Assembly (NCBI GenBank): GCA_031763025.1
Contig: JASSKH010000003.1
Coordinates: forward strand, 10,488,734-10,552,733
From: Macrocystis pyrifera
Lineage: Eukaryota > Sar > Phaeophyceae > Laminariales > Laminariaceae
Direction: 5' to 3'
Length of the DNA stretch: 64,000 nt
The notes beneath the pieces are model-generated. The model saw nothing but the letters and a program-made list of their open reading frames with translations. It was not told the DNA's origin and made no database searches. This document shows positions 6,991-36,740 of this stretch, in pieces; positions within the stretch are counted from its first letter, which is position 1, and every line of letters begins with the position of its first letter. The position numbers and the translations under genes were made by a program.

Positions 6991-7513
6991 CACCAACCGT
7001 TGACACCAACACACGCGCGCGGGGGGGGAGGGGGTGTCCTCCCCAGGGGCTGACGTCTGGGTATGGCCATAATCGCCATGATGCGTGCCTTCGTATGACC
7101 GTAAGTAGTTTGCGTAGGGACGCCCGGACTTCCTCGCCTTTCCATAAGTCTCCACTGCCTGCTTGTTATTTTCGTTTTATATATTTTTCCTTTATCACTT
7201 TTTCGCTTCTTTTGTACGCGTGCGAATTCATCGCTGGCTGTTCGTGTTCTAGCTTTTGTTTCGCCACCTCCCCTCCTGCTTGCGAGTCTGCGAGTCGGCT
7301 TACAATATTTCGTACTATCTTATTTTTCTTCGTTTTCCTCTGTTTCTATTTTTGTTTTGTTCCATTTCGTGTTTCCTCCTCGTCTGCGATCTGCTCGTTA
7401 TCTGCTACGTACCATACGTACTTCGAAGTATAGATGAGGAAGGTTGTCGCAGGGGAAACCTGGTGTTTTGGGAGCAACGGGTAAAAAGATACATCACTTG
7501 CAGAACGATAATT

Positions 7514-7823
7514 TAGAAGGTTTGTACAAGAAAAATGGGGGGCTTAGTACGGGGTATTAATAGGGAAAATGAGAGTTTCACGATCGGTAGGAGATAGAGA
7601 CGAACGAGATTCAGATGCAAGCAAGCAGCCGTAGGTCATTGTGAAGAGCGGAGTCGCCGGTGCGGCAAAGTAGCCAGGATAGCTGACGGGCGAAGTCTGC
7701 ACGAGCTGAACAGAGCCGGGTGCCGAGCAAGGGACGCCAAGGAGTCGTCAAGTTTTGTTTTTTTCTTGTCGTCAGTTTTGTTTTTTTGGTTATCGAGTAG
7801 TATTCATCGGAGCGGCGAGCGAG
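7514..7823 (+). mobile_element. 5' region of the DIRS-like element
   Basis: This leader is repeated at about 28,640-28,910 with high similarity (both contain GAGAGTTTCACGATCGGTA and GTCGTCAAGTTTTG). In both places it precedes DIRS-type debris, so it is read as the conserved 5' non-coding end. A 45 bp stretch just upstream (7,435-7,480) resembles 25,788-25,830 beyond the recombinase and may be part of the terminal repeats. Exact element ends were not determined. Confidence 0.6.
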
Positions 7824-8473: not shown

Positions 8474-8808
8474 TACTCGATAGGAGAGATGTACTCGATC
8501 TCATGCATGGCCGTAGTCGTATGACCATAGACCCTCGCATCCCTACAATGCCGGAACGGGGCATGTCGGGCTTTCACCGACCAGGCAGACATTGCTTGCA
8601 CCAATCGCGAAGCGCCGTGAGGTGCCCGGCGAGTCGCATGAAGGGTGAGCTGCATCCTACTAAGAACCGCTTGTGAGGCGGATTTTCTTGCATATGGATG
8701 ACAGCCTCAATGAGTTAGTTTAATATCCGGTGTAGCCACTTCCAGAGACAACAATGGGAGTACTATGTCACTGCCTCTTGGGTGCCTTACCTGGAACACT
8801 ACGTGATA
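8474..8808 (-). mobile_element. 5'-truncated SINE copy with 11 bp target-site duplication
   Basis: The copy reads from its 3' end (GTACTCGATAGGAGAG next to a G run) to an internal point at 8,808, lacking about 190 bp of the element's 5' part. CGGAGGGACGG occurs at 8,459-8,469 and again at 8,809-8,819, exactly bracketing the copy. A 5' truncation plus a target-site duplication is what target-primed reverse transcription produces. It belongs to the subfamily whose tail has two GTACTCGAT blocks, like 26,867 and 43,270. Confidence 0.85.
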
Positions 8809-9278: not shown

Positions 9279-9774
9279 TACTCATTAGCATACTTGGCGG
9301 TAGTCGTATGACCAAAGACCCTCACATCTATCCAATGCCGGGATGGAGCACGTCGAGTTTTCACCGACCAGGCAGACATTGCTTGCACCAAGCGCGAAGC
9401 GCCCTGAGGTGTTCGGCGTGTCGCATGAAGTGTGAGCTCCATCGTACTATGAACCGCTTGTGAGGCGGACTTGCATATGGACGACAGCTTCAATGAGTTC
9501 ATTTATTTTCCGGTGTGACCACTTCCAGAGACAGTAATGGGATTACTATGCAACTGCCTCGCGGAGGCCTTACCATAAGCGCTACGTGATGCGATCATTC
9601 CCCTTGGGCGGACTAAAGGTTCTCTACCCCGCACAGATGATCTAACTTGATAGCCAGCTATGACCGACCGCAAAAAAAAAAAGTATCCTGGTTGTCTAGC
9701 TCACGTAGTGAGCGGCATGTTTTACAGTGCCGATGCCTAACGACGCCAAGCCAACCTATGTAAAATATACAGTA
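9279..9774 (-). mobile_element. SINE copy, near full length
   Basis: It carries the family hallmarks in order: TACTCATT after a G run, the CGTAGTCGTATGACC block, CATTGCTTGCACCAAGCGCG, CACTTCCAGAGACAG, a poly(A) stretch near 9,671, then GACGCCAAGCCAACC and a second G run. The element's sense is the minus strand. Confidence 0.85.
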
Positions 9775-11008
9775 GGGGGGGGAGGGGGAGAAGGATGTAG
9801 CAAGCAATCTCTGGTGGAGATGCAATGACCGAAAAGCGGTCACAAAGAAATGGTATGGGCATCGCTGCAAGGGGACGGGAAAGAACCATCGTTTCTATCA
9901 GTGGAGACCATGAGCGTGTACACCGAAACATTCATCATCAAGGCGGGGGGGGGGGTCGCGGCAGGTAGTTTTGCTAGCCAGGATCGATGTCCGGAACTTC
10001 TCGCAGAGAGGGCACGTTGGCTTCGCGGCAGGGACTCCATAGGTTACTCTAGGCCACAGGATGGAGGCCCTGTCTCTGTTGCTGATGTGTCTCACGCAGT
10101 TCGTAGCAGACGATAAATAAGACTTCCCGCAAGCATCATTGCGCTGGATGAGCAAGCTGGTCGAGCGTTTCAGGGTTGTCGCGCAAGGGGTGGGGACTTT
10201 CCACGCGCAGAACGTGCAGATGGCGGTTTCGGCGCTGTTCCAGGCATAGTTTTGTCAGTGCTTCAACGAGGAAATGCAGCAGTGGCCGCAGGAACTAGCC
10301 AGCTAGGCGCACCTACTGAAGCAGGAACCGGGAAGCTCGTTTCCCGGTCCAAGTAATATAGGTCCGATGCCCCTACCGCTGTTCGCGCGGACTCATACGT
10401 CGGTCACGGCGGCCCCCATCTACCTGGAGGACACAGCGTATGCCGGGGACTCCGTGCGGGGGAGCATAAGAAGGGACGGGAGACGGTGAGAGGAGAGGGG
10501 GGAGCAAGCGGAGGCTGCGGGGAGGGGGGTGTGTGTGCTCGGGAGGCGGGGGGGGGCAAGGGGCGAAGGGGGTTGGGGGAGGAGGGGGAGGGGGACGGGG
10601 GGGGGGGGGGGGAGGGGGGGGCAGGCGCCATATGACCGCCCCTTCCGCGACTACACCGAATATATTGCGTGCCTGCACGAGCCTAAAACTAATTTTCCGT
10701 GCAGGTGCAGGCGCCCCACAGCCTTAAGACAGCGCAGGGCGCATTTTTGCCGAGGAAGGGGGACGGGTCGCGCAAGCGCAACAGAGAGGGAGATGGGGGG
10801 GGGGGGGGGGGGGGGGGGCAGGGAAGCGGAAGGGGGGAGAAAAAGGGAGAGAGGGGAGTGACGGGCCGGTGAGAAAATGCGAACACGGGCTCCGCCGAGC
10901 AGCGGGGTCAACCATATGAGCAACCGACATTAGTTCCGAGGCAACCATGACGAGGATAACGATGGAGACTTCAGGTTGGGCTCTGGGCCAAGGCGGGGGG
11001 AAGAGGAG
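9775..11008. other. DIRS-like internal sequence with G-rich tracts
   Basis: The segment lies between two SINE copies and is presumed part of the interrupted element. Frames of 60-110 codons are present without recognisable motifs. Strongly purine/G-rich tracts at about 10,470-10,625 and 10,780-10,860 include two uninterrupted G runs. Long frames there are low-complexity Gly/Arg or Pro runs. Confidence 0.4.
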
Positions 11009-11531
11009 TACTCATTATCATGCATGGTCGTAGTCGTTTGATCATAGACCCTCGCATCCCTACAATGCCGGATTGGAGCACGTGGGGTTTCGCCGACCTG
11101 GCAGACATTGCTTGCACCAAGAGCGAAGCGCCGTGAGGTGTTCGGCAAATCACATGAAGGGTGAGCTGCATCATACCATGAACCGCTCTTGAGGCGAATT
11201 TTCTTGTATATGGACGACAGCGTCAATAAACTGATTTATTTTCCGGTGTGGCCACTTCCGGACACAGAAACGGATTCACATTGTAACTGCCTCGTAGGTG
11301 CCTTGCCATATACACAACATGTGATACGATCACCCCCTTGTGCGGAGGGAAGGTTCTCCCCGCATAGAAATGATCTAGCTCGGCCGCCAGCCGTGGTGAC
11401 CCCCCAAAAGAAAAAAAGAAAAAAAAACGGTATCCTGGTTGTCTAGCTCACGCAGTGAGAGGCGTGTTTTACAGCGTCGTCGCCAACTGACGCCAACCCA
11501 ACCTATACATATACCAGGTACAAAAATGTAG
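11009..11531 (-). mobile_element. SINE copy, full length
   Basis: It has the same block order as the other copies, starting TACTCATTATCATGCATGG and ending GACGCCAACCCAACC, then an AT-rich leader and a G run. A poly(A) stretch interrupted by G lies near 11,410. The flanks are G-rich, so a duplication cannot be defined. Confidence 0.85.
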
Positions 11532-11562: not shown

Positions 11563-12152
11563 TTGGTGGTTGCGTCAGAAAAAGGTGCGATATCCGGCCG
11601 GCGCAGAAGAGCAGAAGCGTTGGCAGGTAACACAGGGGTTATTGGGGAAAGTGTCGCCGAAGTAGAAGGCCACAACTTTCATGCCGGCTCTAGCCTCGAT
11701 CGCGGGGACGAATTCATCGCGAGTTACGACAGGGCGCCAGAGGGGAGCGGGGGTGGGATTTATGGGGCAGGTAGTACGTTGGTTGAGCAGATCGTTGACA
11801 GCACCCCACATGAGCCCGGAGCACGTGGAAGCGTTCTTTGCGGACAAGCACCGGTTTCCCGGAATCGATAATTACGCGCGTAGGGGTGCCAGTGGACGTG
11901 CAGTCGGGGGAGACCTAGTCAAGGAGCTCGACTCGCACACGAAAACCATTTAAGCGCAGAGAAATTTGACGAGGTGGCGTGGGAGAAGACAGTGGCGGAC
12001 GTTGCGGGTGGCCGAACAATCATTTTTCCGAAGGAGCAGATGGGGTAGGTACCGGAATTGCGGGTGCCGCCGGTAGAGGTCGTGCAGGAGCGGGAAAGAA
12101 TATAGTAACACATTATATTACTTTCGAGCACAGGGATGGACAGGGGGGGGGG
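11563..12152 (+). pseudogene. DIRS-like element, region just upstream of reverse transcriptase
   Basis: Frames join into LVKELDSH, then KFDEVAWEKTVADVAGG near 11,963-12,013, then VTHYITFEHRDGQG ending at about 12,143. This is the lead-in to the RT of DIRS-type elements as I recall the family. The frame is cut at 12,143-12,152 by the G run of the SINE array. It resumes at about 20,276 with VNSTTDWDETPACALAEV, which shows the array landed inside this open frame. Confidence 0.6.
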
Positions 12153-15100
12153 TATTCATTAGCATGCATGGCCGTAGTCGTATGACCATAAACCCTCGCA
12201 TCCCTACAATGCCGGGACGGAGCACATCGGGTTTTCACCGACCAGGCAGACATTGCTTGCACCAAGCGCGAAGCGCCGAGAGGTGTTGGGCGAGTCGCAT
12301 GAAGGTGAGCTTCATCCTACTAAGAACCGCTTTAGAGGCGGATTTTCTTGCATACGGGTGACAGCATCAATGAATCGATTTAATTTCTGGTGTGGTCACT
12401 TCCAGAGACAGCAATGGGTTCACTACTATGTAATTGCCTCGTGGGTGCCTCACTATGTACACACTACGTGATACGATCATCTCCCTTGTGCGGAGTGAAG
12501 GTTCTCCCCGCACAAAAAATGATCTCACTCGACCGCCAGCCGTTGTAACCGCCAAGCAAGAAAAAACAAAAAAACGGTATCCTGGCTGTCTAGCTCACGC
12601 AGTGAGTGGCGTGTTTTACGGTGTCGTCGCCAACCGACGCCAACCCAACCTATAAACACCAGGTATATTGGGGGGGGGGGTGTACTCATTATCGTGCATG
12701 GCCGTAGTCATATGACCATAAACCCTCGCATCCCTACAATGCCGGGACGGAGCACGTCAGGTTTTCACCGACCAGGCAGACATTGCTTGCACCAAGCGCG
12801 AAGCGCCGAGAGGTGATGGGCGAGTCGCATAAAGGGTGAGCTGCATCCTACTAAGAACCGCTTTCGAGGCGGATTTTCTTGCATATGGGTGACAGCATCA
12901 ATGAATCGATTTAATTTCTGGTGTGATCACTTCCAGAGACAGCAATGGGTTCACTACTATGTAATTGCCTCGTGGGTGCCTCACTATGTACACACTACGT
13001 GATACGGTCATCCCCCTTGTGCGGAGTGAAGGTTCTCCCCGCACAAAAATGATCTCACTTGACCGCCAGCCGTCGTAACCGCCAAACAAGAAAAAACAAA
13101 ACGGTATCCTGGCTGTCTAGCTCACGTAGTGAGAGGCGTGTTCTACGGTGTCGTCGCCAACCGACGCCAACCCAACCTACAAATACCAGGTATATTGGGG
13201 GGGGGGGGTGTACTCATTATCGTGCATGGCCGTAGTCATATGACCATAGACCCTCGCATCCCTACAATACCGGGACGGAGCACGTCAGATTTTCACCGAC
13301 CAGGCAGACATTGCTTGCACCAAGCGCGAAGCGCCGTGAGGTGTTGAGGGAGTCGCATAAAGGGTGAGCTGCATCCTACTAAGAACCGCTTTCGAGGCGG
13401 ATTTTCTTGCATATGGATGACCGCATCAATGCATTGATTCAATTTCTGGTGTGGTCACTTCCAGAGACAGCAATGGGGTTACTATGCAATTGCCTCGTGG
13501 GTGTCTCACCATATACACACTACGTGATACGGTCATCCCCCTTGTGCGGAGTGAAGGTTCTCCCCGCACAAAAAATATCTAACTTGACTGCCAGCCGTGG
13601 TAACCGCCAAACAAGTAAAAAAAACGGTACCCTGGCTGTCTAGCTCACGCAGTGAGAGGCGTGTTCTACGGCGTCGTCGCCAACCGACGCCAACCCAACC
13701 TATAAACACCAGGTATATTGGGGGGGGGGTGTACTTATTAGCATGCATGGCCGTAGTCGTATGGCCATAGACCCTCGCATCCCTACAATGCCGGGACGGA
13801 GCACGTCAGGTTTTCACCGACCAGGCAGACATTGCTTGCACCAAGCGCGAAGCGCCGAGAGGTGATGGGCGAGTCGCATGAAGGGTGAGCTGCATCCTAC
13901 TAAAAACCGCTTTAGAGGCGGATTTTCTTGCATATGGGTGACAGCATCAATGAATCGATTTAATTTCTGGTGTGGTCACTTCCAGAGACAGCAATGGGTT
14001 CACTACTATGTAATTGCCTCGTGGGTGCCTCACTATGTACACACTACGTGATACGGCCATCCCCCTTGTGCGGAGTGAAGGTTCTCCCCGCACAAAAATG
14101 ATCTCACTCGACCGCCAGCCGTCGTAACCGCCAAACAAGAAAAAACAAAACGGTACCCTGGCTGTCTAGCTCACGCAGTGAGAGGCGTGTTCTACGGTGT
14201 CGTCGCCAACCGACGCCAACCCAACCTACAAATACCAGGTATATTGGGGGGGGGGGGTGTACTCATTATCGTGCATGGCCGTAGTCATATGACCATAGAC
14301 CCTCGCATCCCTACAATACCGGGACGGAGCACGTCGGGTTTTCACCGACCAGGCAGACATTGCTTGCACCAAGCGCGAAGCGCCGTGAGGTGTTGAGGGA
14401 GTCGCATAAAGGGTGAGCTGCATCCTACTAAGAACCGCTTTCGAGGCGGATTTTCTTGCATATGGATGACCGCATCAATGCATTGATTCAATTTCTGGTG
14501 TAGCCACTTCCAGAGACAGCAATGGGGTTACTATGCAATTGCCTCGTGGGTGTCTCACCATATACACACTACGTGATACGGTCATCCCCCTTGTGCGGAG
14601 TGAAGGTTCTCCCCGCACAAAAAATATTTAACTTGACTGCCAGCCGTGGTAACCGCCAAACAAGTAAAAAAAAAACGGTACCCTGGCTGTCTAGCTCACG
14701 CAGTGAGAGGCGTGTTCTACGGCGTCGTCGCCAACCGACGCCAACCCAACCTATAAACACCAGGTATATTGGGGGGGGGGTGTACTTATTAGCATGCATG
14801 GCCGTAGTCGTATGGCCATAGACCCTCGCATCCCTACAATGCCGGGACGGAGCACGTCGGGTTTTCACCGACCAGGCAGACATTTGCTTGCATCAAGCGC
14901 GAAGCGCCGAGAGGTGTTGGGCGAGCCGCATGAAGGGTGAGCTGCATCCTACTAAGAACCGCTTTAGAGGCGGATTTTCTTGCGTATAGATGACAGCATC
15001 AATGCATTGATTCAATTTCTGGTGTGGTCACTTCCAGAGACGGCAATGGGTCTAATACGTAATTGCCTCGTGGGTGCCTCGCCATATACGTACTACGTGA

Positions 15101-15296
15101 TACGGTCATCCCCCTTGTGCGGAGTGAAGGTTCTCCCCGCACAAAAATTATCTAACTTGACCGCCAGCCGTCGTAACTGCCAAAAAAAAAAAAAAAAAAC
15201 GGTACCCTGGCTGTCTAGCTCACGTAGTGAGAGGTGTGTTTTACGGCGTCTTCGCCAACCGACACCAACCCAACCTATATATATATCAAGTATATT
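12153..15296 (-). mobile_element. Array of six head-to-tail SINE copies
   Basis: Six near-complete copies begin at 12,153, 12,683, 13,211, 13,732, 14,260 and 14,783. Each is about 515 bp, and neighbours are separated only by 9-15 G residues. All share CATTGCTTGCACCAAGCGCG (one variant), the CACTTCCAGAGA block, CTAGCTCACGCAGTGAGAGG and CCAACCCAACCT. Copies 2+3 and 4+5 match as a pair 1,049 bp apart (GGTGATGGGCGAG in 2 and 4, GGTGTTGAGGGAG in 3 and 5), so a dimer was duplicated. The element's sense is the minus strand. No protein is encoded. Confidence 0.9.
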
Positions 15297-15761
15297 GGGG
15301 GGGGGGGGGGGGGGGTACTCATTCGTTGCTTGCCTTAGTCATTTGACCATTGACCACGCATCCCTTTCGAGACGGAGCACCGTTCCTACTCCTAATAGAG
15401 ACACCAACAATTGGGCGCTCATTACGTTGTTTCCATATATGACATAGAAATGTTTTGCTAAACTTATCCCCTTCCTGTTTGGTCCCCTGTGGCCACCATC
15501 TATCTCCCAGGATAGCGATCGTTTTCTCGCTGCTATTCATTGTATCAAACTCCTCCATGTCACATTCGTCTATTTTCCTCATCTCATCTTCTAACACATC
15601 CCGTTACTCCTTGTATATTTCACATTCTCCTACCATGTGAGTTCTACCCTCTATTCCTTTACACAAGGGCACATCTGTGCGTCTACTTCCTCCTCCTCCC
15701 GGCTACTGGTGTACCTCTTTCTTCTTTCTGGCAGGTCCAGGTCCCCTACACGAAAGCAGTT

Positions 15762-16475
15762 TCAGCGTTTTCGCGAAGTCCATTGGGCCGGGCCATGCAA
15801 ATACGTTTTCATTCCTATTCCTTCCCTCAATCCCCCGTATATCTCTAAGTATTTTTCCGATTCCACCTTGTTTCTTAGTGCTAGCCTTTCCCTTCTTTCT
15901 ATCCTTTCTTCTACTTCTGCCGTGTACCTCCCAAACTTCCTAGCGGACATCATCTCTACTTGGTTTCCCCCTAGATCCTTCCATACTTTCTCAACTACGC
16001 CATCCCACCTTATTCCAGCTCGCCCTTTTGTTACTTTCTCCCATACAGCTCTATCAACTATGGCTGGCAACCTCTTTTTTGGCATGTTCCTTATTTTATA
16101 TTGCCAGTTCAACTTTCTCATGTCTCTATTTGTCTTGAGTGGGCGCATTCCCAGTTCTGCTCTTAATACTGTATTGCTAGTCGTACGTGAGCATCTTAGG
16201 ATTTTTTTAGCTGCTGTCATTTGTACTGTTTCCAACTGTTTTACGAGTTTCGCGTTCCCTTCCCATACTTCTCCTGCATATTCTAGCTTTGGTACTATCA
16301 CATTCATCAAGATACATCTCTTAATCCTAGTGTCAAGGTTCGGGTCTGTTAGGATCGCATCCATCTTGCCTACTTGTGCCTTACCCTTTCCTATTACCTT
16401 TGCTATATGTGTATCCCAAGGGCAGTCTTTTGATATCTCTACGCCAAGGTATGTATACTGGTCTACGATCGGCAA
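15762..16475 (-). pseudogene. LINE-2 C-terminal domain
   Basis: A 237-codon minus-strand frame continues the RT polyprotein after a one-step frame change at about 16,476. It includes DQYTYLGVEISKDC, KRCILMNVIVPKLEYAGEVW and KILRCSRTTSNTVLRAELG, which are typical of the region after the RT palm in many LINEs. It ends RKR at 15,762 in this frame. About 450 bp of 3' region follows before the poly(C) tail. No zinc knuckle was seen. Confidence 0.8.
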
Positions 16476-16476
16476 T

Positions 16477-17300
16477 TCATCTTCTCCCCACTTCCAACTG
16501 AAATTTACCGGGTTTTACCTTATCTTCGTTGCAAACAACTACTGCGCGTTTCTTGACGTTCGCCGTCACCCTCCATTTCCTGGTGTATTCTAGCGCCTTC
16601 TCTTTTTGTTTCTGCAATCCTTCGGGTGTTTCTGATATCCCCACGAAGTCATCCGCAAACATCAATCCCGACACCGTATCTTCCCCTACCGTGACTCCCT
16701 GCCTTGCTGCCTCGACTGCTACTATCAGGTCGTTAATGTATATCTTGAATAAGTTAGGTGACAACGTACATCCCTGTGCAACTCCTTGTAAAATATCAAC
16801 ATACTTTGATATTTCTCCGTCCAGCATCACAGCACTTCTCGCACATTCCGTCATCTTTTTCATCATTCTCCACATCTTTCCCCTGATTCCTATTTCCCAC
16901 AGTTTTTTCCACAACCCATTTCTCCATACTGTGTCGTAGGCTTTCTGCACATCTAGAAAGAAACAGTACGTTGTTAGTCCCGCGTCTTTCCTACCTTGAA
17001 TAATCTTACCTAAGGTGTACACATGATCTACGCAGCTACGGCTTGGCCTAAACCCTGCTTGAACTTCGCTTACTTTGTCTTCCTTCTCCAACATCGTTCC
17101 CATTCTATCGTTCAAAATCTTACAAAATGTTTTGCCTACTGTGCTTAGTAGCGTTATCCCTCTATAGTTCCCCGGGTCAGCCTTATCTCCTTTCTTGAAT
17201 AAATTTACTACAACTCCTTCTCTCCACCTCCTACGTGCGTACTAGTTTTTCCATATCCAGTTATACAACATAACCATCATGGTAAGCATTTCTTCTCCCC
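16477..17300 (-). pseudogene. LINE-2 reverse transcriptase
   Basis: A 212-codon frame starting at 17,115 contains GFRPSRSCVDHVYTL, FFLDVQKAYDTVWR (motif A with catalytic Asp), GVAQGCTLSPNLFKIYIND (motif B) and GLMFADDFVGI (motif C, catalytic DD). The preceding motif DPGNYRGI lies just upstream in another frame, so at least one frameshift separates the N-terminal part. All three catalytic aspartates are present. The family would reverse-transcribe its own RNA and, if tail recognition applies, SINE RNA ending in the same tail. Confidence 0.88.
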
Positions 17301-17516
17301 CGTACTTCAGAAATTCATTCACTATTTGGTCTGCCCCTGCTGCCTTTCTATTCTTAAGTTTAGCGACACACTTCTTTACTTCTTCCCTTGTGAACTCTCT
17401 CTGTAACCCTCCCGATCCACTGTCTTCCCTTTCTGATGTATCTGCGTTCGCCTCTGCCCACGCGTTGATTTCCTTCTCGAATTCTGCATCGAACGTTTCG
17501 TTGGCTGTGGGTGTTC

Positions 17517-18905
17517 CTAGCTTCGGTAATGCTCTACTAGTACCTCCCTTTTCCCCTTCGAACTACTGACTATTTTACCGTTCTGTGCTCTTAGAGTAGC
17601 TATTCCCGTGTCTGCCTCTCCTGCTTGTTTGCCAAGTATCCCTTTTATCCCTACCCACATCTGCTTCATCCCGCCCTCAAAGTCTTCATTCGTTTTATTT
17701 ACTACGTCTTTCCATATCCCTTTCTTCTTCTTCTCTACCATCTCTTTTACTTTCTTTCTAGCTATGTATTCCTCCCACCCTGTCGAAGTTTTACTCGATG
17801 TATACCTTGCGTGTGCCTTTCTCCTTGCTCTTATAGCCTCTTTCACTTCTTCATCCCACCATTTTATCGCTCTGTTGCATACTATCAACTTAATCCCTAT
17901 TACTTTACTTGCTATGGTCTTGACCAACTGCTCCCATCCTTCTATTATCCTAGCTCCTGCATCATCCCTTTCTATATCGTTCCTTGTTGTACCTATTATT
18001 TCCAACAGCTCGGAAAATTTCTCTGCATTTTTGACCATCTCTTCTTGGAACTCTTCCCGTTTCTCTTTTACTTCTAGTTTATCTATTCTCCATCGATACA
18101 ATTTCCTACCTCTTCTATGTTTGATAACTCTCGTCTGTTGACTGTCTGTCCATATTAGACAGTGATCCGTAGTTCCTATGTCCGCTGCGCATACATGTAG
18201 TTCAGTTTCCTTACCACTTCCATTTTCTACTACTATAAAGTCAAGGATAGAGCTTTCTCCCTTTTGTATGCACTGTCTAATCCATTCCGGTTCTGCCTTT
18301 TTTACACTGTCGTTCAACGTTTTCATCTCGTTGTGCTTGAGGAACTTCAACATCTCTTCCCCATTCTTATTCTTTGTTACTTCCCCATATTGTCCAATGT
18401 TCTCATTCAGTTTGCTTGCCCCCCCAATTCTTGAGTTAAAATCTCCCAGTAGTACTACTTCTCCTTGGCCCTTGTACTTCTGTACATCTACTGCTACTTC
18501 TCCGAACTTCCTCTGTATATCTTTTATCGTATTCTTCGACTCTGGGGGCATATCTATGTTTCCTAAGAAGTAATTTTTCGCTCCCCGCTCCCCTGGAATC
18601 TTAATCCATATGCTTTCGTCGAATTTAGTGTCTTTGATGACCTCTATTATGTCACACAGGTATCTTTGACTAGGAACCCCACACCCCCCCCCCTATTCTT
18701 GCTATTCTGTCCCTTCCTTTTTTTCCCTATCCATGCGTACTCTCCAACTTTGAATCCTATCTCCCCTCCTTCTTTCTCCCACGACTCTTGAATTCCCACT
18801 ATGTCTAGGTCGGGCTTACTTACTTGTTCGGCAATTTCGATTAGTTTGCGCTCTTCCGCGGCGAAGCCACATACGTTCCATGATCCTATTCTCAGCCTCC
18901 TTTTC
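17517..18905 (-). pseudogene. LINE-2 endonuclease region
   Basis: This minus-strand region would nick target DNA for priming. Near 18,890 a frame begins with RIGSWNVCGFAAEE, and IVGIQESWEKE follows near 18,800. These are the first two motifs of apurinic/apyrimidinic-type endonucleases (WN and QE). A 344-codon frame from 18,551 holds VVLLGDFNSRIGG, the conserved GDFN motif, and TDHCLIW, the SDH-like end motif. The downstream part (to 17,517) is basic and Lys/Glu-rich. A frameshift separates the two parts. Confidence 0.8.
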
Positions 18906-19275
18906 GTTTCACTATCCGCTCTAGTCTTGCCTGTTATTTCTCCGTTGTCGCCACGAGTATTTCTGTGTCTCTTCTTTGAGCATTATTTTCGTTTCCGTTC
19001 CTGTTCTTGTCTGCTTGTTTTGCGCCCCTATGTTTCTCCCCCATTCCATTTGAGCCACTTGCTGTTTCCTGCCTCCCCCTACCTTCGTTCACCCTAGAAC
19101 TACGTCTTAGTTTTGCTATTCCATCAGCTATACATACTCTCCATCCTAGTCTTCTAACCCATGCCGACACTTTTTCTGTCTCTATCCTCTGCCACTCAAT
19201 GCTCGCTTTCAGCTTCAGAGTGACTGGAAAGTGTTCTCCCTCTCGTTCTACGTTTCCTATTGCAAAGCAATACAG

Positions 19276-20275
19276 TACTCATTATCGTGCATGGCCGTAG
19301 TCGTATGACCATAAACCCTCGCATCCCTACAATACCGGGACGGAGCACGTCGGGTTTTCACCGACCAGGCAGACATTGCTTGCACCAAGCGCGAAGCGCC
19401 GTGAGGTGTTGGGCGAGTCGCATGAAGGTGAGCTTCATCCTACTAAGAACCGCTTTAGAGGCGGATTTTCTTGCATATGGATGACAGCATCAATGCATTG
19501 ATTTAAGTTCTGGTGTAGCCACTTCCAGAGATAGCAATGGGTTCACTACTGTGTACCTGCCTCGTGGGTGCCTCACTATGTACACACTACGTGATACGAT
19601 CATCCCCCTTGTGCGGAGTGAAGGTTCTCCCCGCACAAAAATGATCTCACTCGACCGCCAGCCGTCGTGACCGCCAAACAAGAAAAAAAAAAACGGTACC
19701 CTGGCTGTCTAGCTCACGCAGTGAGAGGCGTGTTCTACGGCGTCGTCGCCAACCGACGCCAACCCAACCTGTACATACCAGGTATATTGGGGGGGGGTGT
19801 ACTCATTATCGTGCATGGCCGTAGTCATATGACCATAAACCCTCGCATCCCTACAATACCGGGACGGAGCACGTCGGGTTTTCACCGACCAGGCAGACAT
19901 TGCTTGCACCAAGCGCGAAGCGCCGTGAGGTGTTGGGCGAGTCACATGAAGGGTGAGCTGCATCCTACTAAGAACCGCTTTAGAGGCGGATTTTCTGCAT
20001 ATGGATGACCGCATCAATGCATTGATTTAAGTTCTGGTGTAGCCACTTCCAGAGATAGCAATGGGTTCACTACTGTGTAGTTGCCTCGTGAGTGTCTCAC
20101 CATATACACACTACGTGATACGATCATCCACCTTGTGCGGAGTGAAGGTTCTCCCCGCACAAAAATGATCTCACTTGACCGCCAGCCGTGGTAACCGCCA
20201 AAAAAAAAAAAAAAAAAAAAAAACGGTTCGCTGGCTGTCTAGCTCACGCAGTGGGAGGCGTGTTTTACAGCGTCG
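19276..20275 (-). mobile_element. Two more SINE copies closing the array
   Basis: Copies begin at 19,276 and 19,800, separated by nine G. The second ends at about 20,275 inside GTGTTTTACAGCGTCG, lacking roughly the last 45 bp of the family's 5' end. It was therefore 5'-truncated on insertion and is probably the oldest member of the array. The first copy directly abuts the 5' end of LINE-2. Confidence 0.85.
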
Positions 20276-21480: not shown

Positions 21481-21917
21481 ATCTCCATCAACTTACTGGA
21501 GGTCATGGCGATGGTAATGACGGCGTTTGTGACGATAGACATGAGGAGAGACAGACCGAGAAGAAAAGGTGAGGCAGTTCTTAAGAGAGTGGATATTGAT
21601 GCGGCCGTAGCCTAGGTAATGAGGTGCAGGTGGGTGGGGAAGAAACAGGCCAGAGTCGTAGGGGCATTGATGAGGATGATGGGGGCATTGGAAGCAAGGG
21701 AGGGGTGGTGTTTTCAGGCAAGCCATACACGGGGTTCGACCATAAGTTGGCAGACGGTTTGACTTGGTGAAAGGAAGAGCAGATTACCGAGAATCCAAAC
21801 GAGGAATGTCCCGGAATCGCCTGACAGGTGCAGGAACTGGAACCGGGGGAGCGGCGCATGTGTCCGGAGATATTGCGAGAGGGTACGCTGTTGGAAGAGT
21901 TGCAGCTTCGAATAGAA

Positions 21918-22385
21918 AAACTTGCGAGGCGAATTGGAGGATGTAGGTGAGTTCGAGGTCGTTCGTCGCGGAGGAGTGCTGGCTGCAGAAATATATGGGA
22001 GAAGTGGAACTAGTAGGGGAGTTGGTCGAGTTCATGGGGTACTGTTGCGCTAGAAAAGGGAAGAAGGAGTCGACTATCCTGGGCAAGTTGGTGGCGATCA
22101 ATTTTTACCAAGAGGAATTTGTAGGGCTGTCAGTACCCATGGGGTAACCCGTTGATCAGGTCGGTGAGACAAAGTATCAAAAGGGCACACGTGGAAAAAG
22201 GTAGTCAGCACTGGGTGAGAAGGCTGTTGACGTGGGAGATGCAAACGGAGATGCAGGACAGCGTTCCGTCATGGGGGGTGAGAGGAAGGGTGATGTGTAT
22301 AGGCCTGGCTTCGTCCTATTTTCTAGAGTTACGGGCGTCGGAGCTGTTCGCCATGGAGAAAGGATTGTTCCATAAAGTATTACGC
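21918..22385 (+). pseudogene. DIRS-like tyrosine recombinase, N-terminal part (left copy)
   Basis: Joined frames read VGELVEFMGYCCAR, ILGKLVAINFYQEEFVGLS, SVRQSIKRAHVEKG and SYFLELRASELFAMEKGLFH. This resembles the helical core-binding half of tyrosine recombinases. The sequence stops exactly where the palindrome-rich transposon begins (22,386). The same stretch occurs again on the other side (24,368-24,808). Confidence 0.65.
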
Positions 22386-24367: not shown

Positions 24368-25385
24368 TTGAAAAACCCACGAGGCGAGTTGCAGGATGTA
24401 AGTGAGTTTGAGGTCGTTCGTCGGGAAGGAGTGCTGGTTGCAGAAATATCTGGGGAAAATGGAACTAGCGGGGGAGTTGGTCGAGTTCATGGGGTACGGT
24501 TGAGCGGGAAAAGGGAAGGAGTCGACTATCGTAAGCAAGTTGGTGGCGATTATTTTTTACCATGAGAAAATTGTAGGGTTATCAGTACCCCTGAGGCAGG
24601 GTATCAAGAGGGCACACGTGGAGAAAGGTAGTTTGCGAAGGGTGAAGGCCTGTTGACGTGGGGGATGCTGACGGGGATACAGGATAGCGTTCCGTCATGG
24701 AGGATGGGAGGAAGGGCGGTGTGGATAGGCCTAGCTATGTCCTATTTTCTAATGTTTGCGGGCGTCGGAGCCGTTCGCCGGGGAGAAAGGAGTGTTCCAT
24801 AAATATACGGTTTACGGAGGGGGGACGTGGCCTTCTTTGGGGATAACGAGCAGTAGGGGGAGGGTGGGAGGCAGGAAGCAAGCAGGGTAGTAGAGGTGGG
24901 GTTTAGGGAATCGAAGGGAGACCAAGGGGGGAAGGGGGCGGTCCTGGTGAGGACAAGGACAGGGGTAGGAAGGGAAGAGGAAGGGGAAGGCAGTGGGAGC
25001 TTTTCAGCATGTACAATGACGGAGAGTTGACGGGGGAGGCGCCTTTGATGTCGCAGCAGGAGAAGGAGGGTTGAGGGTATGGTCCAGGGGAAAGGCAACC
25101 CAATGGTTGAGGAATGGGATTGCAAGGGTGGGAAGAAAGTGGAAGGACGAAGGGAGGGGAGCAGGAGCGAGACAGAATCCGGAAGAATTCGCGTTGCATT
25201 CAGGGAGAATAGGGGGAGCAACAAGGCTGGCCGCAAGCAGGGTGCCAGAGGCAGTGATCAAGAAGGAATATAGATGGTTGTCGGAGGCGTTTATGGTGTA
25301 CATTAGGGCTAACATGGAAGACCCAATATGGGTATCAGAGGTATTGGGGGAGGGAGCAGGGGAGTACGAGAGACATCCGGGATAA
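24368..25385 (+). pseudogene. DIRS-like tyrosine recombinase (right copy, with catalytic domain)
   Basis: The first 440 bp repeat the left copy at 21,918. The sequence then continues through GDVAFFGDNEQ to a 104-codon frame (25,071-25,385). That frame carries FALHSGRIGGATRLAAS and YRWLSEAFMVYIRANMED. These match the H-x-x-R box, the second His/Trp position and the nucleophilic Tyr of the tyrosine-recombinase family. Such enzymes integrate DIRS-type DNA without an integrase-type DDE domain. Stops and frameshifts occur upstream of the catalytic part, so this copy is probably inactive. The stop codon is at 25,383. Confidence 0.75.
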
Positions 25386-25835
25386 AGGACTAAATGGGGC
25401 TGAAAATATAGGTGTCACTCTGTCCGGCAACCCAAAGACCGCTCGGATACTGTTATAAGTGCCCGAACGGTCCCTATGCACGTCCGTACAGAGTGGTAGA
25501 GAAACGCTGTCTCGTGAGGGGAGGTGTTCCACTAGCGGAGCGCGACCGGTAGAGAGGTCGACCTCGTTTCGTTATGTGTTGATGGGGGAGGCGTTAACAT
25601 GCAGGGAAAGGGGCGGGGCAGCCCCTTCCCCCTCCCCTCCCTCCTGCTATTTTGTGTAGGGGTAGGGGAGGCGTACGCATGCGGGGGGGCAAGGGGGCAG
25701 TGAAGCCTACCTTCCCCCCCCCGTCCCCAATTCCGCAGCTCTTCAGATCATATATAGCATCTTTCGTGGAAGTGGCAACCAAAGAGGAAGGTTATCGTTG
25801 GGGCAACCTGGTGTCAGGGGCAACCCGAAATTTCG
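25386..25835 (+). mobile_element. 3' region of the DIRS-like element
   Basis: The non-coding sequence beyond the recombinase contains GAACGCGACCGGTAG-like and GGGGCGTACGCATGCGGGGG words that recur at 29,497-29,690. It therefore belongs to the element's 3' end. About 25,788-25,830 (GAGGAAGGTTATCG, GGCAACCTGGTGT) resembles 7,435-7,480 left of the element, consistent with a terminal repeat. The exact end is not set. Confidence 0.5.
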
Positions 25836-26660: not shown

Positions 26661-26866
26661 AAGTACACAGCACAGCAAACGGTCGGACAGGGCGAGCAGA
26701 CAAACACGCACGCACGTACGCACACAAGGTCGTATGCCTGCCCGTCTCCTGTCCGTCTGATGCTCTGTTGTCTAATACCGAATCAGGGCCCGAAGAGGCA
26801 AAGTGTCCTGTGCTTTTGTCGGGGCGAGAAGAGGGGGGGGGGGGGGGGGGGGGGGGGGGGTACTCG

Positions 26867-27391
26867 ATAGGAGAGATGTACTCGATCTCATGCATGGCCG
26901 TAGTCGTATGACCATAGACCCTCGCATCCCTACAATGCCGGGACGGAGCATGTCGGGTTTTCACCGACCAGGCAGACATTGCTTGCACCAAGCGCGAAGC
27001 GCCGTGAGGTGTTAGGCGAGTCGCATGAAGGGTGAGCTGCATCCTACTAAGAACCGCCTGTGAGGCGGACTTGCATATGGATGACAGCTTCACTCAGTTA
27101 GTTTAATTTCCGGTGTAGCCACTTCCAGAGACAGCAATGGGAGTACTATGTAACTGCCTCTTGGGTGCCTTACCTTGAACACTACGTGATACGATCAATT
27201 CCCTTGTGCAGAGTAAAGGTTCTTTACTTCGCACAAATGATCTAACTAGACGACCAGCTGTGGGCGACCGCCAAAAAAAAAAAAAAAACGGTACCCTGGC
27301 TGTCTAGCTCGCGTAGTGAGCGGCATGTTTTACAGTGTCGTTGCCAACCGACGCCAACCCAACCCATATATAATATATTTAATCTATGGGG
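26867..27391 (-). mobile_element. SINE copy, full length, behind a long poly(G)
   Basis: The copy follows a G run of about 30 at 26,832-26,861 and starts TACTCGATAGGAGAGATG. It then shows all family blocks, including a poly(A) of 16 at about 27,273 and GACGCCAACCCAACCC, ending in an AT-rich leader and nine G. It represents the subfamily with a doubled GTACTCGAT tail. Confidence 0.88.
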
Positions 27392-27595: not shown

Positions 27596-27816
27596 GAGAG
27601 GGTAGACGTCAAGAGCCGCGGTTGCCGTGGTTGCGCGTCGCAAGTTTTTCACCTCGTTCGCGAGATAACCTGTCACGTTATAACAGACCACACTACTGAC
27701 TGCCAGCGCCTCGAAAACGCGCGAGGAAAAAAATCGTTTTTCGTCTCCCACGGCGTCGCTTTTTAGCCTACCACATGAGAGCGCCCCACCACCCTCCCCT
27801 CAGCCTCCGACTATAT

Positions 27817-27864
27817 GTATGGTCACGATTACGGCCATGCATGACACGAGTACACCCCCCCCCC
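27817..27864 (+). mobile_element. Very short SINE 3' tail
   Basis: TATGGTCACGATTACGGCCA, then TGCATGACACGAGTAC and poly(C), matches only the last 45 bp of the SINE, here with its sense on the + strand. It is an extreme 5' truncation. Confidence 0.7.
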
Positions 27865-28639
27865 CATTCTTTTATCGCAGAATGACATGGTTGGTGCCTC
27901 TGCGTCGGCGTATAGCTGGTACCGGTCAGAAAGATACCACTTTTGCATAATACAAGTACCGCAGACTATGGGACTAGTACAAGTACCGTTCCTTGTTTGG
28001 TTTAATCCGACACGGATACCGTCCCGAAAGTCACATGTTTTGTTGCTTTCATGTTATTAGTACATGCTTAGGGTGATGTACAGGGGACACGAACGTTAAA
28101 TTCCCGGGTTTCCGTTCAAATTCGTTCAACTCCGATCTCGATTTTTTTTTTCGAAAAACTAAACAACGCTTTTCTCATTTGTTTTTCGCCAGCGCAATCA
28201 ACAGAACAGCATATGCGTTGACCGCGCTCTACAAGTACACTGGGCTACCTACAAGTTGGTTTATTACCGAAGAAAGGCAGACAATTGGAAAAGGCCGGTG
28301 GAGGGTGACTTTTTCAGTGGCGTACGTTTTTCATTGGCTCTATGGATCGAGGAGTAAAATGCAATTCCAGCGTTTTTTTTTTTTTTTAAATAACCTTGGA
28401 ATGACCTTCAAGTGCAGCAATCGTACGGCGAGCTCCGAGTCCCCTTGCTTAGTGAGGCCATATCATATGAAGGTTGTTATTGCGTTGTTCTGGATTTGTT
28501 TTGCGTTGATTTGCATCGCCAGCCCATGGCGAACACAGTAAAAAAAAACGAAATGCCGATAGATACTATTATCGCCAAGATATCGGCACAAACGTCCAAA
28601 TAGTCCCCACAATATGCAGGAGAGCGGTATACCACTTGA
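27865..28639. other. No gene recognised
   Basis: A 120-codon frame (28,179-28,541, +) has two hydrophobic segments but no recognised motif, and no splice structure was found. Confidence 0.4.
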
Positions 28640-28910
28640 AGGACGGCAATTCAGAAGGTTTTCACAAGAAAGTGGGGTGTTTAGTACGGGGTAATATTGG
28701 GGGAAATGAGAGTTTCACGATCGGTAAGAGATAAGAGAGGAACGAGATCCAGATGCAAGCAAGCAGCCGTAGATCATTGTGAAGAGTGGAGTCGTCGTTG
28801 CAGCGAAGTAGCCAGGATAGCTGGCGGGCGAGGTCTGCACGTGCTGAAGAGAGCCGGGCGCCGAGCGAGGGGCCCCGACAAAGTCGTCAAGTTTTGTTTT
28901 TTTGTTCTCA
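28640..28910 (+). mobile_element. Second DIRS 5' leader relic
   Basis: It is about 85-90% similar by eye to 7,514-7,770, including GAGAGTTTCACGATCGGTA and the closing GTCGTCAAGTTTTGTTTTTT. The internal coding region is absent. A 3'-end relic follows at 29,497, so this is an internally deleted copy or two solo ends. Confidence 0.6.
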
Positions 28911-29468: not shown

Positions 29469-29694
29469 AAAGGGGGGGGGGGGGGGGGGGTTAGCATTCC
29501 ACTAGAGGAACGCGACCGGTAGGGAGGTCAACCGCATTTCGTTATGTGTGGGTGGAGGAGGCGTAAGCAAGCGGGGAAAGAGGCGGGGCAGCCTCCCCCG
29601 CTCCCCTTCCTCCTGCTATTTTATGTAGGGGTAGGGGGGGCGTACGCATGCGGGGGGGGAAGGGGGCAGTGCAGCCTGCTCCCCCTCCCCTCCC
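29469..29694 (+). mobile_element. Second DIRS 3' end relic, with poly(G) at its left edge
   Basis: After a run of about 20 G, the sequence from about 29,497 follows 25,525-25,740 closely (ACGCGACCGGTAG, CTCCTGCTATTTTATGTAGG, GGCGTACGCATGCGGGGGG). It ends where a LINE-2 copy begins. Confidence 0.55.
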
Positions 29695-30091
29695 CCAGGG
29701 CGGGATGAAGCAGATGTGGGTAGGGATAAAAGGGATACTGGGCGAACAAGCAGGAGAGCAGACGCGGGAATAGCTACCCTAGGAGCACAGAACTGTAAAA
29801 TGGTTAGTAGTTCGAAGGGGGAAAGGGAAGTACTAGTAGAGCATTACCGTTAGCTAGGAACACCCACAGCCAACGAAACTTCCGACGCAGAATTCGAGAA
29901 GGAAATCAACGCGTGGGCAAAGGCGAACGTAGACGCATCAGAAAGGAAAGACAGTGGCTCAGCAGGGTTACAGAGAGAGTTCACAAGGGAAGAAGTAAAT
30001 AGGTGTGTGGCTGAACTTAAGAATAGAAAGGCAGCAGGGGCAGACCAAATAGTGAACGAATTTATGAAGTAGGGGGGAGAAGGGATGCTTA

Positions 30092-30692
30092 GACCAACTA
30101 TTATGGGAAATTATTTCTGAGCTCTCAGAACTGGGTTTTTAGGCCGAATATACGCCTTTTACTCGGCGGGAAAACCAGAAACACCGATAGACTCCTCAAA
30201 ATGCTCCCCGTAGTTTTTTACGAGTTTTCAGGAACCATTTCCCCTTTCTCCAGAGTCCAAATTTGAATTTTGGAGCTGCCAATCAATCACTTTTCTCTGG
30301 AGGGTCAGAAATAAGGCTGTTGGTCAGAACTGGGGCCAGAAATAGTGGATCTTCGAGGATTTTTGATGAAAAATCACGATGTCCTCAGAATTGGAAATAT
30401 GGACGAACAGTCCGACGACGACTCTGGAGAAACGGGAAAGGGCTCGAGAAAGCTCTCGGAAAACTAAGGGGGGCATCCTGAGGAGTCTACCGGTGTTTTT
30501 GACAGTCCTGTTGAGTAAATCGCGGGTTTTCGGCAAAAAAAGCCAGTTCTGAGACCCCTTCAAAAATTTTCCATAATATTGCGGGGGGGACCATAGTAAA
30601 CAGGACCAAATATTGTTAGTAAAAATGCCTGATGTAGTTTTTTTATGTATGCCATAAGTCCTGTCAACTATAGACCCCCGTAACAGTTGGTC
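30092..30692. mobile_element. 601 bp TTA-flanked DNA transposon (PIF/Harbinger-like)
   Basis: The termini GACCAACTATTATGGG and the complement of CCCGTAACAGTTGGTC form an imperfect inverted repeat. The insertion is flanked by TTA on both sides (30,089-30,091 and 30,693-30,695). The uninterrupted LINE-2 copy at about 17,271-17,288 has a single TTA at the same point, giving a direct empty-site comparison. A 3 bp TTA duplication is typical of PIF/Harbinger elements. No transposase is encoded; the longest frame is 79 codons. Confidence 0.8.
30578..30684. mobile_element. 110 bp MITE, copy 2
   Basis: GGGGACCATAGTAAACAGGA at the left and CAACTATAGACCCCCGTAAC at the right are the inverted ends, with ATATTGTTAGTAAAAAT inside. 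It forms the right end of the 601 bp element. Confidence 0.7.
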
Positions 30693-32863
30693 TTACCATG
30701 TTGGTTATGTTGTATAATTAGATATGGAAAAACGAGCACGTACATAGGAGGTGGAGAGAAGGGGTAGTAATAAACTTATTTAAGAAAGGAGATAAGGCTG
30801 ACCCGGGGAACTATAGAGGGATAACACTACTAAGCACAGTAGGCTGAACATTGTGGAATATTTTGAACGATAAAATGGGAACCATGATGAAGAAGGAAGA
30901 CAAAATAAGCGAAGGGCAAGCAGGGTTTAGGCCAAACCGTAGCTGCGTAGACCATGTGTACACCTTAGGTAAGATAATCCAAGGTAGAAAAGACGCGGGA
31001 CTAACAACGTACTGTTCCTTTCTAGATGTACAGAAGGCCTCCGACACAGTATGGAGAAATGGATAGTGGAAAAATGAAGGACCTGATAGTAGCGGTCGAG
31101 GCAGCAAGGCAGGGAGTCACGGTAGGGGAAGATACGGTGTCGGGATTGATGTTTGCGGATGACTTCGTGGGGATATCAGCAACACCCGAAGGATTGCAGA
31201 AACAAATAGAGAAAGCGCTAGAATACACCAGGAAATGGAGGGTGACACGGCGAGCGTCAAGAAATGCGCAGTATTTGTTGGTAACGAAGATAAGGTGAAC
31301 CCGGTAACTTTCAGTTGGAAGCGGGGAGAAGATGAACTGCATATCTTAGATCTGCATAGAGATATCAAAATATTTCTCTTGGGATACACATATAGCAAAA
31401 GTAAGAGGAAAGGGTAAAGCACAAGTAGGCAAGATGGATGCGATCCTAACGGACTCGCACCTTGACACTAGGATTAAGAGATGTATCTTGATGAATGTGA
31501 TAGTACCAAAGCTGGAATTGCACGAAAAGTTTGGGAAGGGAACACGAAGCTCGTAAAACAGTAGGAAACAGTACAGATGACAGCAGCTAAAAGATCCGAA
31601 GCTGCTCAAGTACGACTAGTAATACAGTACAAGTATTAAGAACTCGGAATGTACCCATTCAAGACAAATAGAGACGCAAGAAAGTTGAAATGGCAATACA
31701 AAGTAAGGAACATGCCAAAAAAGAGTTTGCTAGCCATAGTTGATAGAGCTGTATGGGAGAAAATAGCAAAAGCGCGAGCTGGAATAAGGTGGGATAGCGT
31801 AGTTGAGAAGGTATGGAAGGATATAGGGGGAAACCAAGCAGAGATGATGTCTGCCGGGAAGTTTGGGAGAGGAATAAAGGACACACAGAAGGGAAAGGCT
31901 AGCGCTAAGAAACAAGGTGGAATCGAAAAAAAAACACTTAAGAGATACACGGGGGAATTGAGCGAAGGAGCAGGAATGAAAACGTATTCGCACGGCCCAA
32001 TGGACTTCGCGAAAACACTGGGACTGCGATTTTGTGTAGGTGACCTGGCCCTACCAGAAAGAAGAAAGAGGAATGCCAGTAGCCGGGAGGAGGAGGAAGT
32101 AGATGCGCAGATGTGCCCTTGTGCAAAGCAATAGAGAGTAAAACTCACATAGTAGGAAAATGTGAAATGCACAAGGAGGAACGGGATGTGGTAGAAGAGG
32201 AGATGAGGGAAATAGACGAATGTGACAATAGAGGAGCTTGACACACTAGATAGCAGCGGGAAAAAGATCGCTATCCTAGGAGATAGATGGTGGCCACAGG
32301 CGACGAAATAGGAAGGGGATAAGATTAGCAAAAAAAATCTACGTAATATATGGAAACAACGTGATGAGCACTCAATTGTTGGAGGTGTCTCTATTAGGAG
32401 TAGGAACGGCGCTCCGTCTCGAAAGGGATGCGTGGTTAATGGTCAAATGACTAAGGCAAGCAACAAACGAGTACGCCCCCCCCCCCCACACCATTTCGGG
32501 ATCCTTCAGATAAGAGCACCTTTCGTGGAGGTGAGGACCAAAACCTACGTACACTGATCTCACTTTAATAATACGTATTGTCTGAGGTGTACGAGTTGCT
32601 TCAGTTGTTTATAAAAAAATTATTATGATCAACTCTTATTGTGCATAGCATTATACATCCAATACCGAAGCGCCAGGCATGTCTTTATTTGGACGAGGTA
32701 CCTGGTATTTTTTTCGTTCATCTTACATGTTTTCCTCCCCACCACTGGAAGCATCTGTGCGGAGTTCAGATCATACCGACGACCACCTAACAGGTAGAAC
32801 CCCACATGATTACTTTCGGTTAGCACACTATAAGAAAAAAAACGAGTTGAATAATAGCAAATC

Positions 32864-33599: not shown

Positions 33600-33732
33600 A
33601 CACCTCTTGATCGTGCCGTCGCATACATGATACAAATATACCAGGTACCTCTTGATTGATACCAGGTGTTCGTAGAGCTTTGGTGGATATCGTAATGATG
33701 CGAGTAACCCCCCCCCCCCCCCCCCCCCCCCC
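33600..33732. repeat. Fragment of tandem repeat family C ending in poly(C)
   Basis: CTTGATCGTGCCGTCGCATA, then CATGATACAAATATACCAGG and GAGCTTTGGTGGATATCG, recur in the three units at 35.0-36.7 kb. It ends GATGCGAGTAAC and about 23 C, a tail reminiscent of the LINE-2/SINE tails. Confidence 0.55.
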
Positions 33733-34420
33733 GGGAGAAAGTAACAAAAGGGCGAGCTGGAGTAAGGTGGGATGACGTAGTTGAGAAAGTATGGAACGAT
33801 ATAGGGGGGAAACCAAGAAGAGGTGATGTCCGCCGGGGAGTTTGGGAGGTACAAGGCAGAAGTAGAAAAAAGGATACGAATAAGGGAAATGGCTAGCGCT
33901 AAGAAACAAGGTGGAATTGGAAAAACCCTTACAGATATACGGGGGATTGAGCGAAGGAATAGGAATGAAAACGTATTTGCACGGCCCAATGGACTTCGCG
34001 AAAACGCTGAAACTGCGCTTTCGTGTAGGTGACCCGGACCTGCCAGAAAGAAGAAAGAGGTATACCAGTAGCCGGGAGGAAGAAGTAGATACACAGGTGT
34101 GCTCGTGTGACAAAGCAATAGAGTAGAACTCATGTAGTAGGAGAATGTGAAATATACAAGGAGGAACGAGATGTGTTAGAAGAGGAGATGATGGAAATAA
34201 ACGAATGTGACATGGAGGAGTTTGATACACTAGACAGCTACGAGAATACGATCGCTATCCTAGGAGATGGATGGTGGCCACAGGCGGTCAAACAGGAAGA
34301 GGGTAAGATTAGCAAAAATGTTTCTATGTAATATATGGAAACAGCGAAAGAGCGCCCAATTGTTGGAGGTGTCTCTATTAGGAGTAGGAACGGTGCTCCG
34401 TCTCGGAGTTGTTATCGAGC
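33733..34420 (+). mobile_element. LINE-2 3' fragment
   Basis: The fragment matches the C-terminal and 3' region of LINE-2 (TGGGATGACGTAGTTGAGAA, GGAGGAGTTTGATACACTAG, GGAGTAGGAACGGTGCTCCG). It breaks off inside the shared tail at CTCCGTCTCGG. Its left end is flush with a poly(C) run. Confidence 0.8.

Positions 34421-35049: not shown

Positions 35050-36740
<1,691 letters not shown>

Follow-up and report, generated by a model that had tools for sequence, protein, structure and literature searches.

A LINE and a SINE-like element with a common 3' tail lie mostly in C-tracts in a 64-kb window of the Macrocystis pyrifera genome

RESULTS

The window contains a LINE, a SINE-like partner, and a mixed head-to-tail array

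We analyzed 64,000 nucleotides of the genome of the brown alga Macrocystis pyrifera (contig JASSKH010000003.1, positions 10,488,734 to 10,552,733; this whole stretch is called the window, and positions are counted from its first letter). The window carried 6 copies of a long interspersed nuclear element (LINE), designated LINE-2, and 17 copies of a non-coding element of ~520 bp that resembled a short interspersed nuclear element (SINE). The inventory covered this one 64-kb window and was made via blastn and reading of the sequence; junctions were placed via blastn and by eye, with errors of a few bases possible. Sixteen of the SINE-like copies were found via blastn, which missed a ~40-nt remnant consisting of the tail only (27,815-27,854, plus strand) that was readable in the sequence.

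The reference copy of LINE-2 (15,316-19,264, minus strand; 3,949 nt) was frameshifted. Its reverse transcriptase part (16,477-17,241, minus strand) matched PF00078 (RVT_1) with an E value of 1.4e-29, and its PDB matches included LINE-1 ORF2 and R2 chains. The second part of an apurinic/apyrimidinic (APE)-type endonuclease, together with a linker, was located at 17,517-18,692 (minus strand; PF14529, E value of 6.9e-4, below the cutoff), and the first part was located just upstream in another frame (PF03372, Exo_endo_phos; E value of 1.1e-6, above the cutoff). Thus, LINE-2 is, by its predicted reverse transcriptase and APE-type endonuclease domains, an APE-type non-LTR (long terminal repeat) retrotransposon, and this copy is broken by frameshifts. 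Ten open frames of the window yielded no Pfam match above the cutoff.

Among the 120 listed matches to the reverse transcriptase, those with a name came from Ectocarpus, with a single exception. This exception (P0010; 90% identity over 65%) carried the label of a Hyphomicrobiales metagenome-assembled genome, which we took, without proof, for algal contamination. Based on its Ectocarpus relatives, LINE-2 may belong to RTE-X. Searches with the reverse transcriptase gave no confirmed locus in the viral-contig or genome-contig collections.

In the case of the short element, no A or B box was detected on the sense strand of the three units examined with simple consensus patterns, Rfam returned no match up to an E value of 10 in 12,141-15,320, and no tRNA was present in the 64-kb window. 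Two of the three units contained internal T-runs of 16 and 22. Because a SINE in the strict sense has an RNA polymerase III promoter or a head derived from tRNA, 7SL, or 5S RNA, we refer to the element as SINE-like.

The most conspicuous feature was an array at 12,143-20,275 (minus strand), in which eight SINE-like units and one LINE were arranged in a single orientation. Starting from 20,275, the order was a0 (19,798-20,275), C9, a1 (19,275-19,788), LINE-2 with no C-run before it, C19, a2 (14,781-15,296, starting directly after the C19 of the LINE), C10, a3 (14,258-14,770), C12, and a4 (13,730-14,245). This was followed by C10, a5 (13,209-13,719), C12, a6 (12,681-13,196), C11, a7 (12,153-12,669), C10, and then unrelated DNA. 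Runs of 9 to 19 C were therefore present at seven of the eight joints. The first-pass annotation of this DNA had listed a truncated copy near 19.8 kb; the 5' truncation stood, with ~43 nt lacking, and the copy proved to be unit a0 of the eight-unit array, starting at 20,275.

LINE-2 and the SINE-like element share a 3' tail

When the last 400 nt of the LINE were compared with a SINE-like unit, a local alignment of ~90 nt was obtained that ended in GAGTAC in both elements and had a score of 72. None of 500 dinucleotide shuffles reached this score (mean, 32.7; maximum, 61). The 1,000 nt upstream of the LINE tail aligned to the SINE-like body with a score of 35, which was the level of shuffled sequence (mean, 34.5; 100 shuffles), and the homology was limited to the last ~75 to 80 bp. 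The LINE version of the tail is exemplified by 15,316-15,395 and the SINE-like version by 12,681-12,763 (both minus strand). An alignment of 5 LINE tails and 13 of the 17 SINE-like tails contained 16 invariant columns, and a DNA pattern that the two tails share had 10 matches in the window versus none in 100 shuffles. The same pattern had no match in the viral-contig and genome-contig collections, from which records of this genome were possibly left out, and an 18-row alignment gave no confirmed locus in the viral-contig collection. As judged from these alignments, the 3' ends of the two elements are homologous and the remainders are unrelated, which is the arrangement of a tail-sharing LINE/SINE pair, as the first-pass annotation had proposed.

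The 5' ends of the SINE-like copies were variable and the 3' end was constant. All 17 copies reached the terminal motif (GAGTA in 14, AAGTA in units a2 and a4, and GAATA in a7), and the earlier claim that these copies are truncated only at the other end thus held; among the six LINE copies, one (33,733-34,405) had lost the tail. By reading, C-rich sequence directly followed the motif in 15 of the 17 SINE-like copies, the others being those at 11,008 (CTCCTCTTCCCCCC) and 19,275 (the side facing the LINE, with no C). In five copies (8,476, 11,008, 34,475, 43,274, and 63,699), the C-rich sequence after the motif was imperfect and not a homopolymer.

Two further properties of the tail were noted. 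Three related SINE-like copies ended in a doubled GAGTAC (e.g., ATCGAGTACATCTCTCCTATCGAGTAC), at 26,862-26,880, 43,274-43,290, and 8,476-8,493, and the doubling looks as if it arose from one slip of the tail. A candidate hairpin, with a CGTCYC/GGGATG stem that was kept in most of the 18 tails, was rejected: only 1 of 10 predicted pairs showed a two-sided change, and two single folds were not unusual (z of -1.87, with 10 of 200 shuffles as good, and z of -0.25, with 75 of 200).

C-tracts lie upstream of the 5' junctions

C-rich sequence was also found on the 5' side of most copies. Full-length SINE-like copies were located at 9,279-9,774 (C8 at each side), 11,008-11,530 (within a C-rich stretch), 26,862-27,387 (C9 before and C28 after), and 34,475-35,010 (between duplicated imperfect C-tracts), all on the minus strand. 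The 5'-truncated SINE-like copies outside the array included those at 8,474-8,808 (minus strand; with the target-site duplication CCGTCCCTCCG), 63,699-63,801 (minus strand; C-rich at both sides), and 55,648-55,881 (plus strand; C21 after and no C-run longer than 3 before). In the case of the LINE, 5'-truncated tails were present at 44,487-44,684 (minus strand; CCCTC14 before and C18 after) and 52,809-52,959 (plus strand; C9 before and CGCCCCGC13 after). A C25 preceded the 5'-truncated, tail-less copy (33,708-34,405 with the tract, plus strand), and a LINE tail fragment (43,818-43,876) was joined via C13 to a full-length SINE-like copy at 43,274-43,876 (minus strand).

The sequence upstream of 14 non-nested junctions was measured; nested copies, namely the seven inner units of the array together with its LINE and also the SINE-like copy at 43,804, were set aside. 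In the 20 nt upstream of these junctions, the mean C content was 0.64 versus 0.26 in the background, the G content was 0.07, and none of 50,000 resampled sets had a C content as high. The C content was 0.61 in the 10 truncated copies alone and 0.69 in the 5 LINE copies alone, and no set of 50,000 reached either value. A C-run of at least 5 was present on the sense strand within 20 nt of 11 of the 14 junctions versus 2.9% of the background (binomial P of 3.8e-15). Because the enrichment persisted when only the truncated copies were considered, the upstream C's do not represent the beginning of the element transcript. As a rough control scored by eye, four other repeat families had an upstream C-run in 0 of 11 copies, or 1 of 11 when the orientation was reversed. 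The pattern suggests a strong, oriented preference of the insertions for C-tracts, and three junctions that lack such a run speak against strict specificity.

Tracts of this kind were abundant. The window contained 59 runs of C or G that were 8 bases or longer, which makes homopolymer C/G tracts common potential targets; 14 of them lay within 3 nt after GAGTA or GAATA, and of the remaining 45, no fewer than 11 were likewise located at the ends of LINE or SINE-like copies. The longest run (34 bases; 58,538-58,571) did not. Separately, two C-runs upstream of LINE insertions (runs within 33,690-33,732 and 44,693-44,720) were preceded by GCGAGTAA and ATCGAGTATCCCT, which resemble the terminal bases of the tail and may be the ends of further tail-sharing families.

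A paralogous empty site already carries a C-tract

One LINE copy could be compared with a related site that lacks the insertion. This copy (29,696-32,475, plus strand) was 5'-truncated, had an internal insertion and deletion, and was bordered by C-rich sequence at both ends. The sequence to its left (5' flank at 29,484-29,695, ending CCCCCTCCCCTCCCC) recurred at 25,527-25,728 with 86% identity over 202 bp. The empty site (25,518-25,783, plus strand) carried the tract C9GTCCCC at 25,714-25,728, and beyond it, the empty site matched the right flank of the LINE (25,727-25,783 versus 32,491-32,542). The C12 and 3' flank of the filled site (32,476-32,542, plus strand) were colinear with the empty site. 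When the flanks were joined, 225 of 259 aligned positions, gaps excluded, were identical to 25,518-25,783. Anchored after the C-run, the right flank scored 36, whereas the best of 4,894 control pieces scored 20 and the stretches that follow 57 other C/G runs scored no higher than 1. Based on this comparison, the C-tract most likely preceded the LINE insertion. Together with the upstream tracts, the tract in the empty paralogue indicates that the poly(C) is, for the most part, likely to be pre-existing target.

These results bear on the origin of the poly(C), which the first-pass annotation had read as the elements' own tail. In that explanation, the RNA ends in a C homopolymer or slippage adds C, and the insertion sites are otherwise unspecific. 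It would account for the C that follows the motif in most copies and for the copy at 55,648-55,881, which has 21 C after it and no run longer than 3 before it and thus speaks for some C having been added or expanded later; in addition, short terminal repeats are described as common in RTE-type LINEs in the available parts of two reports (PMC13295347, PMC3747384). It does not account for the C-tracts upstream of 11 of the 14 junctions, which occur at different truncation points, for the tract in the empty paralogue, or for the imperfect C-rich sequence after the motif in the five copies listed above. We consider a true poly(C) tail distinctly unlikely. Within the window, the poly(C) looked largely like flanking target sequence, with the copy at 55,648-55,881 still arguing otherwise.

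Target-site duplications include part of the C-rich sequence

The copy ending at 8,808 was flanked by the duplication CCC[A/C]CCGTCCCTCCG, in which 14 of 15 positions were identical; the duplication that had been noted at 8,459/8,809 is therefore real. The copy ending at 35,010 was flanked by ACCC[G/T]CCCCCTCCCCCCCC. For both copies, the C-rich 3' flank matched its own 5' flank better than the 3' flanks of other copies did. By this reading, the C's beyond the duplication that would be assigned to the element number 0 to 4 in the copies at 8,808, 35,010, and 63,801, the last of which is a weak case. In the copy at 55,648, ~16 C beyond the duplication would be the element's, which suggests a further contribution from slippage or subsequent expansion.

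The first-pass annotation had further proposed that target-primed reverse transcription started at the shared tail. The uniformity of the 3' ends, the variation at the 5' ends, and a duplication that was clear in at least one case agreed with this proposal; poly(C) as the element's own tail, which had been part of it, did not find support in the form proposed.

Insertion and unequal exchange in the array

All nine adjacent element pairs in the window were head-to-tail, and C alone separated the partners in eight of them. LINE-C-SINE joints were found at two separate loci (15,297-15,315 and 43,805-43,817) and involved different LINE and SINE-like copies. Within the array, a ~1.05-kb dimer was present in tandem (12,751-14,850), and its halves (12,751-13,800 versus 13,801-14,850) were 96 to 100% identical in 75-nt steps. 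Unit a5 was 99.0% identical to a3, and unit a6 was 97.3% identical to a4. Those array units whose 5' end is complete started with AATATAC; scattered full-length copies started otherwise.

The near-identity of the dimer halves and of a3 and a5, along with the common AATATAC start that scattered full-length copies lack, is what would be expected if the array were an ordinary satellite, in which unequal exchange multiplied a single SINE-like copy without any insertion at C-tails. We regard this as rather unlikely, since duplication of a SINE-like unit alone is insufficient to explain a LINE within the array and two LINE-C-SINE joints with different copies. The array fits repeated insertion at the C-tracts of older copies plus one dimer duplication, and both insertion at C-tracts and unequal exchange probably shaped it.

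Template jumping is a known property of LINE reverse transcriptases. Jumping of this kind, or co-transcripts of adjacent elements, could have made tandem copies in one insertion event, and the exact, same-orientation joints are consistent with this idea. Because it leaves the C-tracts upstream of solitary copies and the empty site unexplained, we find it very improbable as the origin of the joints.

Other repeats in the window

The window also contained repeats of other kinds. Two copies of a repeat of 850 bp, 79% identical to each other (49,329-50,165 and 62,269-63,103), had terminal inverted repeats that were imperfect (CTATGMCAATGG...CCATTGGCATAG); this repeat is likely to be a DNA transposon relic. 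Another repeat, of ~110 bp and with ends that were near-palindromic (TATTACGGGGGTCCAT...), was present in five copies (23,578, 54,215, 60,295, 61,374, and 61,622). Two dispersed pairs were 86% identical (7,495-7,770 and 28,633-28,909) and 80% identical (21,915-22,376 and 24,370-24,803), and a (TAC)n microsatellite of ~159 units with 97% matches was located at 35,862-36,338.

DISCUSSION

We assign a probability of roughly 0.7 to the reading that LINE-2 and a non-coding element that has the same 3' tail insert mostly in C-tracts, likely via an endonuclease that nicks the G strand of an existing tract. Specifically, the predicted endonuclease of the LINE would nick the G strand inside an existing C-tract, and the freed primer, which ends in G, would pair with C's at the end of either RNA, that of the LINE or that of the SINE-like element. 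The shared tail would then be where reverse transcription begins, with the LINE endonuclease and reverse transcriptase presumably acting on both RNAs. Only a few C's would come from the RNA; the remaining poly(C) would be duplicated target or later expansion. The C-tracts left at the ends of an insertion could serve as the next targets in the same orientation, which would seed a LINE/SINE array that unequal exchange would then lengthen.

Several observations weigh against this reading or temper it. The C enrichment was measured at only 14 junctions of one window, against a background taken from that same window, and 3 of the 14 junctions had no C-run of 5 upstream: the 5' end of the array at 20,275 (C at 9 of 30 positions, in runs of up to 3), the copy at 55,648 (upstream runs of up to 3, yet 21 C downstream), and the tail-only remnant at 27,815 (upstream runs of up to 4). 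The joint between a1 and the LINE contained no C-run, with 10 bases (19,265-19,274) between the LINE and the SINE motif. One close pair, made up of the LINE that ends at 34,405 and the SINE-like copy that ends at 34,475, was tail to tail, and the sequence between the two was not C alone. In addition, the nine joints were not independent because the dimer duplication made some array joints copies of each other. The empty site was a diverged paralogue and not an allele, and without anchoring, its right flank gave a score that one of 1,942 window pieces and one of 1,000 shuffles also attained. The evidence from flank pairs was modest. Across 13 loci (the tail-less LINE at 33,733 was left out in addition to the nested copies), own 5' and 3' flanks matched better than swapped pairs, with 272 of 20,000 permutations as good (about 0.014). 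The own pair ranked first at just three of the 13 loci (8,808, 35,010, and the array); the match at the array was not C-rich and lay 9 bases past the C-run, and the own pair ranked last at 63,801. The other loci could not be decided by flank ranking because their C-rich flanks were too alike.

Microsatellite-specific LINEs include Togen and further elements of the Tx1 and R1 clades. Togen is a (TG)n-specific LINE that is grouped with elements carrying a restriction-like endonuclease, according to the available part of its description (PMC4640811); it is similar to the LINE in the window in having a simple-sequence target but differs in its endonuclease, which is APE-type in the window LINE. 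As far as the accessible text of another report goes, site-specific APE-type LINEs occur solely in the Tx1 and R1 clades (PMC13295347). The same text describes a Tn-TA insertion signature for the RTE-clade Bov-B LINE and Sauria SINE and for plant RTE LINE/SINE pairs, in which the 3' repeat of the element agrees with the base that begins the target-site duplication (PMC13295347). The pair in the window is like these RTE-clade pairs in its shared tail, in the homopolymer stretch upstream of the duplication, and in the agreement of the 3' repeat with the first base of the duplication. It differs from them in that their signature is a T-stretch followed by TA, whereas here a C-tract directly abuts most elements and arrays are present at the tract.

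The closest counterpart by description is found in another brown alga. In the portion of the Ectocarpus report at hand, the LINEs RTEX-1 and RTEX-2_Ec32 and the non-autonomous RTEX-N1_Ec32 have a conserved 3' end in common, and RTEX-N1_Ec32 is ~600 bp long, is present in more than 6,000 copies, and has a 5' part of unknown origin (PMC12477816). Like the window pair, this set comes from a brown alga and includes a non-autonomous element that shares a LINE 3' end and has a 5' part of unknown origin; unlike it, the set is described in that portion with neither a C-tract target nor arrays. Although the likeness is one of description only, RTEX-N1 is likely to be a relative of the SINE-like element in the window.

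Thus, as far as these partial sources extend, tail sharing in brown algae (PMC12477816) and an upstream homopolymer, of T, in RTE pairs (PMC13295347) were already known. The C-tract target and the arrays on such tracts would be new, and neither was found in the open-licence literature searched. There is, at somewhat less than even odds, a broader meaning to these observations: LINE-2 may represent an APE-type LINE of brown algae, outside the Tx1 and R1 clades, that has evolved to target oligo(dC)-oligo(dG) tracts specifically and in one orientation, brings along a SINE-like parasite to the same sites, and makes its own landing sites, such that mixed satellite arrays would be formed.

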